A DNA stretch of 27,694 bases from Chromera velia (taxonomy: Eukaryota > Sar > Chromeraceae). The stretch is from contig JAHBMJ010000428.1 in NCBI GenBank assembly GCA_018398765.1, positions 17,296 through 44,989 on the forward strand, written 5' to 3'. The position numbers were made by a program, and so were the translations under genes. Below, one piece after another: positions 6,914 through 27,694 of the stretch. The stretch's first letter is position 1. Each line of letters opens with the position of its first letter. The notes under the pieces were generated by a model. It was not told the DNA's origin. It worked only from the letters and a program-made list of their open reading frames with translations, and made no database searches.

Positions 6914-7573
6914 CTAGCCCTCCCCCTGCACTCCTCTGGTCCCCTGAATGCACGCGCTTGCCGCTTTCAGGTGGGCAATCTGCAGTCGGGCTTAGATCCG
7001 GCCACACGTCTTGCTCACGTGTTGCCCCTATTTCTCACTCAATCGCTCTGCCACCCTCTTCAAGAACATCTTAGCCTCCCCCTCCATCGTCCTATCGACC
7101 GCACTCATGAGTAGGGTGAAGTCGCACCCTCTGTCCATATTTACCTGCCCATGTTTCCTCTTTTTTTCTTCTGTTGCTGCTTTGAGGGCTTGAGTCCAGG
7201 TCACCTTCTCCCTCGAGGTGGCGTGTGGGTTTATCACCCTGGTATCGAAAATTGCCAACCTCTATAGAGCATAGGCCCCCCGGACTTGGAAGTCCCCCCT
7301 TAGTGCCGGACATCCCTGCACCTCCCCTTCCTCCCTAATGATCGGCTCTTTTGCGTGAACCGCTCCCGCGGGGTATGCTTCTGCTGCTAGACTCGCCCAT
7401 GTGTGGTTGACTTCGTCATGTCGCAGCATGGGCAGTCCCCCTACTGGGCAGTTAAGGGCGTGTTGCAGACTCCACCTTCCCCCACATCCCTCACATCTGC
7501 TCTTCTCCCCCCCTACCCTCCCCTGATATTGGATTGTCATCGTATCCCGGAATTCGTCTGGGCTGAGATTCAT
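6914..7573 (-). pseudogene. retroelement C-terminus: Cys/His motif and nuclease-like domain
   Basis: Reading leftward, MNLSPDEFRDTMTIQYQGR leads into a CxxC...H...C motif and GGL...RHDEV. Then come RGDFQVRGAYAL, a TAG at 7262-7264, AIFDTRV, and a helix with EEKKRKHG and the box FTLLMSAVD. The frame continues past a TAG at 7028-7030 and a TAA, with residues that still resemble the family, to another TAG at 6914-6916. D-x-x-V-R-G followed by I-F-D-T-R-V looks like a PD-(D/E)XK nuclease core; that is inference from pattern, not proof. The three internal stops mark it as a pseudogene under the standard code. Confidence 0.65.
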
Positions 7574-8391
7574 TCCGTATTCCTTCAGGGGGGTGGCCGT
7601 CAGCCATCCTGACTGCCTCTTTTTTTTTGACTGCCTGACTTCCTCACACTGGTCCTCACTGGCTGCCTGCCCTGACTGGCTGCCTAACCTCTCCCACTCC
7701 TAAAGTTTCTCTACTGTTTCTTTTACTGCTTCTTTGTGGGCTGCCCTTACCTTCTGCCCCCTCTTCATATGCTCGTCTGCGTCTATGTCCTCTTCGCGAA
7801 GGATGGCCTTTGTGATCGCTTCACTGGCTACGACTGAGGTCTTATAGTCCCTATCTGCTGTTTCGGTGGGTTTAGGGATACCTAGGCCTAGCAGTCGGAC
7901 CGGGAGGGCGGCAACATCTCTTAGCCACATATCGTACTAGTTGGGGGGCCCTCCATTCCGTCGTCTTTTTATTAGGGCGGGGATGAGGCGGTTTCTGATC
8001 ATGCCTTCCAGCTGCCCCATCTGTTCCCCCGCCCCTGGTACTACCCGCACCACAAACTTCCATTCGTGTTGCAAGGATTTGGAACAGGCTGCGTATGCTT
8101 CGTGTGGGGCAAATTCTACTGCTGTTGCGACTCTCTCTACGTTTCTGGCCCACTCCTTCACCTTCTGCTGCACCCATTTCTCTCTGTGTGCGTCCGTGCC
8201 TACATACCCCCCTAGGAGATACGTCCCCTCTACTATCTGCAGGTCGGGGAACTCTGCAAAAATCTCCTTAGCTTTCTGCATAAATTGCAGGAGCACTGCA
8301 AGGATTAACTTGTCCACCTCCACTACATACCCTGCCGCGGGCCCCCTCTTGACTAACTCGCGTAGCCATGCTCGCAGCTGGCGCAACCAGC
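7355..8391. repeat. left copy of a 1037-bp direct duplication (RT thumb to Cys/His motif)
   Basis: This segment matches 8643-9679 at a constant offset of 1288 bases. I found only five differences, all transitions (7368, 7382, 7404, 7428 and 7449 in this copy), and all in the first 95 bases. The left copy ends exactly at the N gap and the right copy begins exactly after it. Minus-strand reading gives the RT thumb (RQLRAWLRELVKRGPAAGYV at its right end), LPVRLLGLGIP, and WLTATPLKEYGMNLSPDEF. It is probably an unmerged assembly overlap rather than a biological tandem repeat. Confidence 0.9.
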
Positions 8392-8642
8392 NNNNNNNNN
8401 NNNNNNNNNNNNNNNNNNNNNNNNNNNNNNNNNNNNNNNNNNNNNNNNNNNNNNNNNNNNNNNNNNNNNNNNNNNNNNNNNNNNNNNNNNNNNNNNNNNN
8501 NNNNNNNNNNNNNNNNNNNNNNNNNNNNNNNNNNNNNNNNNNNNNNNNNNNNNNNNNNNNNNNNNNNNNNNNNNNNNNNNNNNNNNNNNNNNNNNNNNNN
8601 NNNNNNNNNNNNNNNNNNNNNNNNNNNNNNNNNNNNNNNNNN
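8392..8642. other. assembly gap of 251 N
   Basis: A run of undetermined bases inside the retroelement, flanked by the two copies of the 1037-bp duplication. Any reading frame crossing it is meaningless. Confidence 1.
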
Positions 8643-9729
8643 GTGAACCGCTCCCACGGGGTATGCTTCCGCTGCTAGACTCGCCCATGTGCGGTTGACT
8701 TCGTCATGTCGCAGCGTGGGCAGTCCCCCTACTGGGTAGTTAAGGGCGTGTTGCAGACTCCACCTTCCCCCACATCCCTCACATCTGCTCTTCTCCCCCC
8801 CTACCCTCCCCTGATATTGGATTGTCATCGTATCCCGGAATTCGTCTGGGCTGAGATTCATTCCGTATTCCTTCAGGGGGGTGGCCGTCAGCCATCCTGA
8901 CTGCCTCTTTTTTTTTGACTGCCTGACTTCCTCACACTGGTCCTCACTGGCTGCCTGCCCTGACTGGCTGCCTAACCTCTCCCACTCCTAAAGTTTCTCT
9001 ACTGTTTCTTTTACTGCTTCTTTGTGGGCTGCCCTTACCTTCTGCCCCCTCTTCATATGCTCGTCTGCGTCTATGTCCTCTTCGCGAAGGATGGCCTTTG
9101 TGATCGCTTCACTGGCTACGACTGAGGTCTTATAGTCCCTATCTGCTGTTTCGGTGGGTTTAGGGATACCTAGGCCTAGCAGTCGGACCGGGAGGGCGGC
9201 AACATCTCTTAGCCACATATCGTACTAGTTGGGGGGCCCTCCATTCCGTCGTCTTTTTATTAGGGCGGGGATGAGGCGGTTTCTGATCATGCCTTCCAGC
9301 TGCCCCATCTGTTCCCCCGCCCCTGGTACTACCCGCACCACAAACTTCCATTCGTGTTGCAAGGATTTGGAACAGGCTGCGTATGCTTCGTGTGGGGCAA
9401 ATTCTACTGCTGTTGCGACTCTCTCTACGTTTCTGGCCCACTCCTTCACCTTCTGCTGCACCCATTTCTCTCTGTGTGCGTCCGTGCCTACATACCCCCC
9501 TAGGAGATACGTCCCCTCTACTATCTGCAGGTCGGGGAACTCTGCAAAAATCTCCTTAGCTTTCTGCATAAATTGCAGGAGCACTGCAAGGATTAACTTG
9601 TCCACCTCCACTACATACCCTGCCGCGGGCCCCCTCTTGACTAACTCGCGTAGCCATGCTCGCAGCTGGCGCAACCAGCCAGTATTGGACGCGTCATCCG
9701 CATAGTAGAGCTGGTGCCAGTATCTCTAA
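8643..9729 (-). pseudogene. retroelement RT catalytic box, thumb and linker (right copy)
   Basis: Reading leftward: WHQLYYADDASNTGWLRQL holds the catalytic YADD (9693-9704). The thumb follows with GTYLLGGYVGTDAHREKW, APHEAYAACSKSLQHEWKF and a LEGMIRNRLIPAL segment. After a TAG (9225-9227) comes LPVRLLGLGIPKPTETADR. After another TAG (8988-8990) the frame runs through WLTATPLKEYG to the Cys/His motif and reaches the N gap. A further TAG lies just before the YADD segment (9726-9728). No frameshift was found in this part; all three stops are TAG. Confidence 0.75.
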
Positions 9730-24222: not shown

Positions 24223-27200
24223 ATGGACTTGATTTCAAAAGACTCCATCTCAGACACCGACGATCCCTGGAAACTGCCGCCGCTTTCTCTCGCAGGTTCG
24301 TCCCCCCTCTTTCTCCTCTGCTTCTCTTGGCGCAGAGAAAGCTCTGTGATCCTTTCCCCCCCACTCGTCACTCTCTCTTTTCCAGTGAGCTCGTCCGGTA
24401 GGCAGCAATGGGGGCAGTGCAAAGTCCTCCTCTGGACGGGCGGGGTCAAACCGTCTGCAATCTCTTCTCTCCTCTTCCGAACAGGCCACCTCACCTACTT
24501 ACCTACCCCCTTCCTTCTCTCATCCAGCTATCCTCAATGGAATTGCACTGGCTTCCTTGCTAGCGAGGAATTTGAGCTGGCGCTGCCCTCTCACGCGACA
24601 AGCAAGCACTTCTTTCAGGAGGAGTTCACGCATGCGTGTTCGTGTACCTCTCGCACCTATACAACCACACGCTCACCTGCACACACGCCTGCACCGCGGT
24701 CCCTCCCTGTGTGTGGTCTGCCCGCCTGCCTGTGTGTGCAGCCGAGGAGGAAAGCAGCGAGACCGCCCCCGCCCCCCAGCTCCGTTGCTCGTCTCCGCCT
24801 CCTTCCCTTTTCCAACCCCCCTGCCACCCCGAAAAAGGCAGACCGCAAACACGTGAGGCAAGGGCACAGCCGTCCCTGCTGACAACAGCATCTATAGGTC
24901 TGGGGGTGGAGACTGAGGTGGCAGAGAGAGAAGACCTCCTCCTCCCTCTTTTCGTCTTCGGGCAAGAGGGTGGAGTTTCTTTTGCTTCGGCGCCTCCTCC
25001 CGTCTCTCCTTCTGCCCCTTCTGCTCCTGTGGAAGCTGAAGAAGGGGGAGAGGGAGTAAAAGACCTACGAGGCGCAGCATCATCTCCTGCTGTTCTTGGC
25101 AGGAGGTTGCATGCTTCCCATTCAGCTTTTTCACCCTTTGTTTTTGCTTTGGGCGGTTTGTCGTTGCCCTCCCCCTCTTGCTCCCCGTCTCTTCGGAGAG
25201 ACGGGAAAGAAAACAGGAACGATGGCAAGGTGATGCTTGGGGGAGGGGAGGAGTCTGTCTCTCCAGAGAGTGTGCATGTGTCTGTGGGGGTGCGTCAAAC
25301 TGCGGCGCCTGAAGAGAAGGAGACGGGGGTTCGAAAGTCAGCAGCAGAACGTCAAGGCTTTCTTTGCCCTTCCAGTTGCCCTTCTTCTTCTTCCTCTTCC
25401 TCTTCTTCAAGTCTTGAACAGGAAGCTCGTCTGGTGGCGGAGCAGGGAGAGGAGGAGGATGGAAGAGGACAATGCGCCCCCTTTGCTTGTGCCCTTCCCT
25501 TTGGCGTCGACTTCTTGCCGCCTTCTTCCGCCTCGTCTGCGTCGACCCCAAGCAGCAGCAGCAGCAGTAGCAGGAGGCCTGCAGAAGACGGCAGGGCGAC
25601 CCAGAACAAAAAGAGAAAGCAGCAGCAGCAGCAGGATGGGGGGCGAAGAGAAAGAAACGGAGAAGAAGAAGGAGCACAAGAGGATGCTCCCGTGCTCCAA
25701 TTGTTCTTGAAAGACCTCGATGGTGAGTCGCTTTTTTTTTTTGTCTGTCTTTCTTTTTTTCCGTCTCTCACATTTTCTTCTTTGCGCGTGTGCTGAATTT
25801 CCTATCTGTCTTTCTGTCCGTCTTTGTGTCATTCTGTCTGTCTGGCCTGTCCGATTTGACCTGGATAGAGTTCGCGCAAATTTCTGCGAAGGGGTCCTTC
25901 TTTTTTAGATGGTCCCATGCTGGAAATGCAGCCGCGGGTGCTCGATTGCGTATTTCGAGCTGTTTTGTATGCGTAGAGGTACAAGAGATTTTCTGGTGAT
26001 ACGCATCTGTGTACATAAGTGTTTTTGTGTCATGAGTGTGTGAATGAATGACTGACTGAATGAATGAATGAATGCTCTTCCTTGGTTTGTGAATTTCTTC
26101 CTTTGTCCCTGCTCTGCGGGGGCGTGCAGGTCGCACTCATCTTCTCCGTGTTCCTCCGAACCTGTCCGTGTCGGAGTTGGCGCTCCTGATTGAAAAGAAA
26201 ACCGGTCTGCCTTCAGAAAACGCAGATTGGAGACTCCTCTCAGGCAGGCGTCAGATCACCCCGGCAGCAGTCTCAGTCTCCGCAGTTGCCGCTGAGACGG
26301 GGTGCTTCGAGTCTGCATCATGCGGTGTTTTGGAGCTGAGCGAGGGTTTCAGTTCTGATTGTGAGGAGACTGAGACTGAGATGGTAGATCGAGGGCCCGA
26401 AAAAGAAAGGAGCGACAACAAGAAGAAGATGGTAGATCGAGGGCCCGAAAAAGAAAGGAGCGACAGCAACAAGAACCATGTTTTGATGCTTAAAGATGGG
26501 GGAGAACAGGAAGAGGAAGAAGATCTCTTTGTGCATTCATCCTCGTCCCCTCCCTTTGTGTCGTCGTGTCTTTCTGTTTCTCTTTCTCAGCTTCCTGAAA
26601 GAACAAAAGAAGGGGAAGAGAAAGAAGCAGAAACACCGATTTTGTCTGTGTCTTCACCCTGCTTGCCTTCTTCCTCTTCTTCTTCCTCTTTTGCCCTTGA
26701 GGGAGAGGGGGGGGGATCCTCCAGTCACTCGGTTGAGGACAAGCAGTGGAAGGAGAAAGGAAAGGGGAAGAACGCACTGTTGGGATTGGAAGATTTGAGC
26801 ACGTTGACGATCGTCGGCCGTCTGAAGGGCGGAATGATGCAAGGCGGTGGGGGGGGAGGGGGTGGCAGGGGCGGAAGGAAAGGTACGTAGTGTGCTGCTT
26901 GCCTACATGGTGTTTCCTCTCTCCTCTATCTTTTGTGTTTTTTCTTTTTTTTTTTTCAATTTTTTTTGTTCTTTCCTTTCTTTTCTTCTTCTTTCTTCCT
27001 TCTGTCTTTCCTTCCTCCGTCCTCTCCTTCCTTTTTTTCTCTTCTCCCTTCCCTCCTTCCACCAGCGAGGTTCCTTCCTCCCTTCCCCTCTCACAACTCC
27101 CCTTCATGGGCAGCCCTTCTTTCATTCCTTCCTCCCTCACTTTCTCTCTCTGCCGTCGCTGGCTGCAATCGGACTGATTTACTCGCCGGGCTTTCTCTGT

Positions 27201-27317
27201 GCGTGTACCTTCTGACATTGTCTCGCTCTGTCTGTCTGTCTGTCTCTCTGTCTCTCTGTCTGCAGGTCGCATGGGAGGAGGCATGGGGGGCGACGGGGTG
27301 AGTCGGTGAAGCATGGA

Positions 27318-27375
<58 letters not shown>

Positions 27376-27694
27376 CTCTATCCGTCATGCCTGTTGGCAT
27401 GGAGGTCGGCTGGAGATTCAGTATCCCCAACATTCCACCTAGCTCTTCCGATTTTTCTTTGGTGAGGTGAAGTATTCTGCTTGCATTCATTCGCTTTCCC
27501 CCTGCCTCCGTCTGCTGCAGGAGGGGAGAGAATACGGTCGTCGCAACAGCGGCGGCGGACTTGGGGGAGGAGGGTATGGCGGGGGGGGAGGGGGGTATCC
27601 TGATAGAGGAGACAATAGAGGTGGCGACACGCCTGGAGGAGGAAAGGGTGGCGGGGGCAGGGGTCGAGGGGGTCATATTGACGGGGGGGGAATG
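24223..27694 (+). CDS. split ubiquitin-like domain protein with RGG tail (3' end outside window)
   Basis: Exons 26130-26882, 27266-27297 and 27521-edge join in phase to the exon ending at 25722. Upstream exons 24223-24295, 24386-24637 and 24742-25722 are a phase-consistent but less certain model starting at ATG 24223. The product is at least 755 residues. Residues about 110-424 are Ser/Glu/Pro-rich and disordered, with poly-Ser and a NKKRKQQQQQ patch (possible nuclear signal). A ubiquitin-like fold starts at 426-436 (VLQLFLKDLDG) and continues RTHLLRVPPN, LSVSELALLIEKKTGLPS and WRLLSGRRQI to 478, matching ubiquitin strands 1-4 and the helix. About 175 low-complexity residues follow, then LSTLTIVGRLKGG (658-670) matches ubiquitin's last strand and RLRGG end. 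The tail is Gly/Arg-rich (GRGGRK, GYGG, GRGRGGH), typical of RNA-binding RGG regions. The family is not recognised. Confidence 0.7.
26381..26476 (+). repeat. 48-bp in-frame tandem duplication
   Basis: Two copies (26381-26428, 26429-26476), nearly identical apart from changes at the end. Each encodes 16 residues beginning MVDRGPEKERSD. It lies in the insertion that splits the ubiquitin-like domain. Its near-identity indicates a recent event. Confidence 0.9.
26936..27260. repeat. intronic polypyrimidine (TTCC/TTTC/TGTC) tract
   Basis: The intron 26883-27265 is strongly T/C-rich. It starts with T-runs and TTCC tetramers and ends in TGTC/TCTC repeats that merge into the acceptor CTGTCTGCAG before the 32-nt exon at 27266. 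Confidence 0.8.
27321..27375. repeat. (GT)n microsatellite
   Basis: About 27 GT units with one GC interruption, in the intron 27298-27520 of the ubiquitin-like gene, beginning about 23 bases after the donor. Confidence 0.95.

Follow-up and report, generated by a model that had tools for sequence, protein, structure and literature searches.

A gene on the plus strand of the Chromera velia contig JAHBMJ010000428.1 appears to encode a ubiquitin-like domain (Ubl) interrupted by low-complexity sequence. We lean, with some reservation, towards a single Ubl in which the loop equivalent to residues 51-58 of ubiquitin has been enlarged by about 166 low-complexity residues and the rest closes as a beta-grasp. 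The gene would be a nuclear one, and its product a large protein, for the most part of low complexity, that carries one ubiquitin-like domain. The two halves of the domain, QLFLKDLDGRTHLL...WRLLSGRRQI and LGLEDLSTLTIVGRLKGG, share one frame once the GT-AG intron at 25723-26129 is removed, just as the original prediction had it, and the frame, the splice signals and the sequence signals of the split Ubl are all present in the DNA.

Gene layout and the coding status of the insert

The gene runs from about position 24223 to the end of the window (the whole stretch of DNA analysed, 27,694 nucleotides), which is also the end of the contig at its position 44,989, and its 3' end is missing. A search of the C. 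velia genome with the last 315 bases returned only the self-match; nothing that would extend the gene beyond this contig was found. The spliced frame holds, in this order, a low-complexity N-terminal region, the first half of the Ubl, 174 residues, the C-terminal half ending in RLKGG and a Gly/Arg-rich tail. GT-AG introns of the Ubl gene lie at 25723-26129, 26883-27265 and 27298-27520. The features, in window coordinates, are the following.

24223..24295, plus strand: probable first coding exon (MDLISKDSISDTDDPWKLPPLSLA-), with an open frame, matching phase and a putative start codon
End of the first exon: donor GTTCGT, phase-1, joined to 24742 or 24619, exon and acceptor both being predictions
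24742..25722, plus strand: N-terminal exon, low-complexity and Ser/Glu/Pro-rich, ending in beta-1 of the Ubl
25698..25722, plus strand: strand 1 of the Ubl, QLFLKDLDG, aligned to profile position 1, the codon of the last Gly split by the intron
25723..26129, plus strand: GT-AG intron of 407 nt within the Ubl, at the turn between beta-1 and beta-2, GTGAGT...GCGTGCAG
26130..26257, plus strand: strand 2, helix and strands 3-4 of the Ubl, GRTHLLRVPPNLSVSELALLIEKKTGLPSENADWRLLSGRRQI; 20.6 bits with PF00240 when beta-1 is included; modelled by AF2 as strand, helix, strand
26258..26779, plus strand: insert of 174 residues, Ser/Glu/Lys-rich, in an open frame, mostly of low pLDDT, between the equivalents of ubiquitin residues 50 and 59
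26324..26341, plus strand: GVLELS, candidate last strand of a compact Ubl; AF2 strand at residues 66-71, strongly negative profile score
26379..26474, plus strand: two tandem 48-nt copies, 96% identical, inside the insert (MVDRGPEKERSD...), the unit length being a multiple of three
26780..26833, plus strand: C-terminal half of the Ubl, LGLEDLSTLTIVGRLKGG, with connector, strand 5 and tail, matched by an 18-column profile
26834..26882, plus strand: start of the Gly-rich tail after the di-Gly (MMQGGGGGGGGRGGRK-)
27266..27297, plus strand: exon of the Gly-rich tail (GRMGGGMGGDG), with GT-AG borders and the frame kept
27521..27694, plus strand: exon of the Gly-rich tail, truncated by the contig end

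The first half, QLFLKDLDG...RRQI, is thus made up of 25698-25722 and 26130-26257. The C-terminal half was found where it had been placed, but the end previously given for it, 26836, takes in the next Met; the half ends at 26833. Between the two we counted 174 residues, in agreement with the roughly 175 that had been claimed. Over 24743-25722 the coding frame of the N-terminal exon has no stop, against six and five in the other frames. A Pfam scan of the N-terminal region at E <= 1 yielded no family above its cut-off, SR-25 alone being listed (E 0.026, 14.5 bits vs 40).

The insert is probably exon. Its 174 codons (26258-26779) contain no stop in frame, against nine and four in the other two frames, and such an open frame was equalled in only 70 of 20,000 first-order simulations. 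The open frame is nevertheless weak evidence for an exon here, because the intron at 26883-27265 itself has a single stop per frame. If the gene model were an artefact, the insert would be spliced out, wholly or in part, by an unseen intron, or each half would belong to a transcript of its own. The insert does contain in-frame GT...AG pairs, its best-looking acceptor-like sequence (TTTCTCAG) ends at 26590, and two of its ten 50-base windows (from 26531 and 26631) are pyrimidine-rich and intron-like. However, none of the 15 best-scored in-frame GT...AG pairs spans the whole insert, the frame is open throughout, and we regard an artefact of this kind as very improbable. The insert, which holds the 48-nt tandem duplication, is most simply a lineage-specific expansion.

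The genome (177.8 Mb) contains 58 matches to PF00504 (LHC family), which point to a photosynthetic eukaryote. Among the PDB matches listed for two of its LHC proteins (in one case the best 60 of 618) are antennae of the fucoxanthin and peridinin types, their scores being too low to indicate a near-identical chain. The window also carries a four-exon gene, at 1477 to about 4130, whose product is an acetyltransferase of the GNAT type (Acetyltransf_7, 39.6 bits). This protein has a Lys/Glu/Pro-rich low-complexity block directly ahead of the start of the Pfam match (residues 197-274) and, by eye, a hydrophobic stretch. As this neighbour has a block too, domains flanked by low-complexity padding may be frequent in this genome, to judge from just these two genes. 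Elsewhere in the window, two stretches of about 1 kb that are near-identical by eye (about 7365-8391 and 8643-9680) flank a run of N (8392-8642) and look like a repeated element or an assembly duplication.

Ubiquitin-family signal in the two halves

A ubiquitin-family profile matches the first half weakly, below threshold: Pfam PF00240 gives it 20.6 bits over positions 1-43 of 72 (E 3.7e-4), under the curated cut-off of 25.4. The score drops to 17.1 bits in a 335-residue query that includes the known tail. An HMM built from 19 full-length host Ubls gave 25.3 bits on the first half alone. To go by their names, the best 60 of 195 matches among PDB sequences (E <= 10) are ubiquitins, ubiquitin variants or fusions. 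The alignments span about query residues 7-57, and single ubiquitins are listed at E 0.0017 to 0.071; the very low E-values arise because polyubiquitin chains sum weak repeats. The weak Pfam and HMM scores and the ubiquitin matches in the PDB therefore make the first half a divergent yet credible start of a Ubl. A PF00240 search of the genome (177.8 Mb, 4,040 contigs) does not list this Ubl among its 63 places.

The second half, LGLEDLSTLTIVGRLKGG, matches the host Ubl consensus at positions 59 to 76. A profile of 19 host Ubls, with 18 columns picked after the alignment had been seen, has it as its sole match among the 32,158 18-mers of the window in six frames. Shuffling a 220-residue region never reached its score in 10,000 trials with this profile, and did so once in 10,000 with a tail profile made from eight host sequences with an LRG tail. 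As a background we used 50 other loci, where 33 of 221,386 18-mers reach the score (28 by the tail profile); 32 of these 33 are Ubls by reading, training sequences included among them. A 14-column profile is weaker: it ranks the C-terminal half first of 35,829, and 76 of 20,000 shuffles reach it. A second, noisier 14-column profile places it fourth of 35,829, and 15 of 50 background matches are non-Ubl by reading. Taken as a separate stretch in full-profile searches, the half scores only 0.3 to -3.5 bits. By the 18-column profile, the second half carries a ubiquitin-family signal beyond chance, which is weaker with fewer columns or with joined halves. The C-terminal strand and RLxGG tail typical of PF00240 can be read in LGLEDLSTLTIVGRLKGG; in a split domain they would pack on the first half.

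Homologs showing conservation were found neither in the C. velia genome, searched with both halves, nor in viral contigs, searched with the first half (51 pattern matches, 0 confirmed). Neither half retrieved a paralog from the genome, the other matches being ordinary Ubls (best E 0.07) or weak Gly-rich sequences (best E 0.74).

Where the domain would close

Searching the whole protein recovers profile segments 1-48 and 59-74 in order. When 165 residues are left out, a 75-column HMM of full-length host Ubls scores the joined halves at 35.4 bits with all positions aligned, which is the best join along the downstream protein; with the same HMM the first half by itself reaches 25.3 bits and the contiguous sequence 24.2 bits. 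One of 60 shuffles beat the score of the joined halves. With a 69-column HMM lacking the tail, the join to the C-terminal half (28.2 bits) is not clearly the best, two unrelated joins scoring 27.9 and 27.7 bits. Pfam PF00240 on the joined halves gives 23.3 bits (1-71 of 72) or 22.2 bits (1-46 only), depending on the join, both below 25.4, and 19.9 bits on the contiguous stretch.

The predicted structures point to a different ending. Contiguous pieces of exon 2 were given to AF2 as single sequences, without an alignment and with beta-1, which lies across the intron, left out; the mean pLDDT was 47.2 for exon 2 (244 residues) and 56.1 for the first 81 residues. At this low confidence, both models show a ubiquitin-like strand, helix and strand, followed by a strand at GVLELS (residues 66-71), and the 81-residue model has an extra helix at residues 50-57. 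At STLTIV, the likewise low-confidence model of exon 2 without beta-1 has no strand. A Foldseek search with the 81-residue model produced 230 matches at E <= 10, and 46 of the best 50 have titles that name ubiquitin or a ubiquitin-like protein, as a chain or within a complex; the best match has an E-value of 0.36 and a probability of 0.35, and none reaches E <= 0.001.

These models would fit a compact, contiguous Ubl of about 75-80 residues, with VSAVAAET as the connector helix, GVLELS as the last strand and LGLEDLSTLTIVGRLKGG as a separate element. A compact Ubl would be the simpler architecture, because its loop has a normal length. AF2 and Foldseek weakly favour it, whereas the sequence profile strongly disfavours GVLELS, which scores -13.7 and -12.0 bits where the distal segment scores +16.7 and +14.3 bits. 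Moreover, joining the sequence contiguously brings no gain to the HMM over the first half alone. We consider the compact domain unlikely, but it is the main rival.

Tandem Ubls occur in this genome, in polyubiquitin and as two Ubls in one frame at another locus (L041). The present gene might accordingly hold a decayed tandem, two Ubls in a row of which the first is compact and the second is reduced to a C-terminal strand and di-Gly. However, the N-terminal half of such a second Ubl is not recognised: the stretch from NHVLMLKD to RLKGG matches profile positions 58-75 only, with 0.3 bits, and everything downstream of RRQI matches positions 58-74 only. We judge a decayed tandem improbable. A second complete Ubl inside the insert was likewise looked for by profile search and not recognised.

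For the single Ubl with an enlarged loop, which we prefer, the earlier proposal that the loop had expanded while the fold was kept is borne out in part. Both halves are ubiquitin-family by sequence, they stand in the right order, and the best join omits 165 residues; the AF2 models of exon 2, on the other hand, use GVLELS and not STLTIV.

Known systems, possible roles and significance

Long inserts in Ubls have a precedent. In the available portion of PMC8527833, the Ubl of CFAP298 contains a long, largely alpha-helical insert, and its closing strand pairs with a strand more than 200 residues away. Like the domain described here, it is a Ubl split by a long insert and poorly visible to profile searches (PMC8527833, same portion). 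Its insert is helical and sits between strands a-b and c-d, whereas the present one is of low complexity and follows the helix and strands 3-4. The present protein does not appear to be CFAP298, whose family (PF11069 in the portion of that source) is absent from Pfam scans of the region from the Ubl to the tail (E <= 10) and of the N-terminal region (E <= 1). The claim of an unusual Ubl architecture is softened, because the Ubl of CFAP298, as far as this portion goes, already holds a long insert (PMC8527833). Inserts are known in beta-grasp domains generally, and none of those in the available text of PMC1949818 is a long block of low complexity within a Ubl, unlike the one here. In the open-access literature searched, part of it available as excerpts, we saw no Ubl described with a long insert of low complexity.

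The integral, non-conjugated Ubls of PF00240 resemble the present domain in the order of strands and helix, the positions of the hydrophobic patch and the RLxGG tail; the present domain differs in a 51-58 loop that is longer by about 166 residues of low complexity and in a score below the cut-off. Among the host Ubls, a small family (L048, L059 and L062) has a shorter expansion ahead of the last strand, several residues long (e.g. GLSVCGGGTENPVVHLILRL).

For the split Ubl, we infer a likely fold, docking function, loop role and processing. By alignment and hand reading, in ubiquitin numbering, the recognition face is kept or conservatively replaced (L8=L, R42=R, L43=L, I44=L, V70=V, R72=R, G75-G76), and other residues stand in place of the main lysines for chain linkage (K11=R, K48=R, K63=D). 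The 51-58 loop that the insert replaces presumably points away from the I44 face, as in the structure of ubiquitin, and the insert would loop out away from that face. In the available portion of PMC4457826, the loop ahead of the last strand of USP7 Ubl2 serves to bind partners, and its length differs between the five Ubls. A partner-binding loop in this position is conceivable here as well; the USP7 loop is short and part of a deubiquitinase, and that portion describes no long insert in USP7 Ubl2 (PMC4457826). The disordered insert could bear binding motifs, because the equivalent loop of USP7 Ubl2 binds partners according to the same portion (PMC4457826). The kept recognition face, the placement of the insert away from the I44 face and the USP7 Ubl2 loop together favour a docking domain with a looped-out segment, and the Ubl would likely be a module, built into the protein, on which ubiquitin-binding partners dock.

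The idea of a conjugation-like di-Gly is unsupported, because the di-Gly is internal and precedes a Gly/Arg-rich tail of at least 85 residues; the junction reads GGMMQGGG. An internal di-Gly is not unusual in this genome, since four host Ubls (L046, L049, L054 and L073; 4 of 41 loci scanned) run from RLRGG into M[FY][HN]ETSGM, apparently a common tail motif. As here, their di-Gly is followed by Met and a further tail; unlike here, their Ubls or Ubl exons score much higher, no long insert interrupts the open frame and the tail is not Gly-rich.

In the FUBI-eS30 (FAU) precursor, a Ubl with di-Gly stands ahead of a C-terminal partner. This identity was rejected: the 335-residue query with the known tail, in which the gene end is missing, has no S30 match, and the sole PF04758 match of the genome lies on another contig (C407). 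A deubiquitinase could possibly cut after the predicted RLKGG site and free the Gly/Arg-rich tail. The Ubl of SDE2 is cut by deubiquitinases after GG, according to the available portion of PMC9508853; the junction is GG-K (GGKGG) there and GG-M (GGMMQGGG) here. SDE2 itself was rejected as an identity, an SDE2-like segment being found on another contig (C1406, matched by a hand-written motif at E 3.1e-11); a search with PF13019 for SDE2 gave no match, and none in the control either. Finally, the plastid ubiquitin-like protein PUBL combines a Ubl with a functional C-terminal di-Gly in the available portion of PMC5487736. It resembles the present protein in its divergent Ubl, N-terminal extension and di-Gly and in occurring in organisms with red secondary plastids (PMC5487736, same portion). 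PUBL, as described there, ends at the di-Gly, and the at least 85 residues of Gly-rich tail argue against this identity; by eye, no plastid leader was recognised in the protein as predicted from its putative start exon.

The full picture, a functional two-half Ubl with a disordered regulatory or recruitment loop of ~170 residues, a kept recognition face and a deubiquitinase cut after RLKGG that releases an RGG-type tail, seems doubtful to us. The interest of the split Ubl stays modest unless it can be shown to fold and to be processed. If it is one fold, split Ubls would come in two kinds, that of CFAP298 and this one, whose insert is disordered, not helical, and placed in a different loop. 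Profile scans would then miss such domains, as the PF00240 scan of this genome, with its 63 places, did with this one. If the insert is mere loop padding, it would call for caution in inferring architecture from genomes rich in low-complexity sequence.
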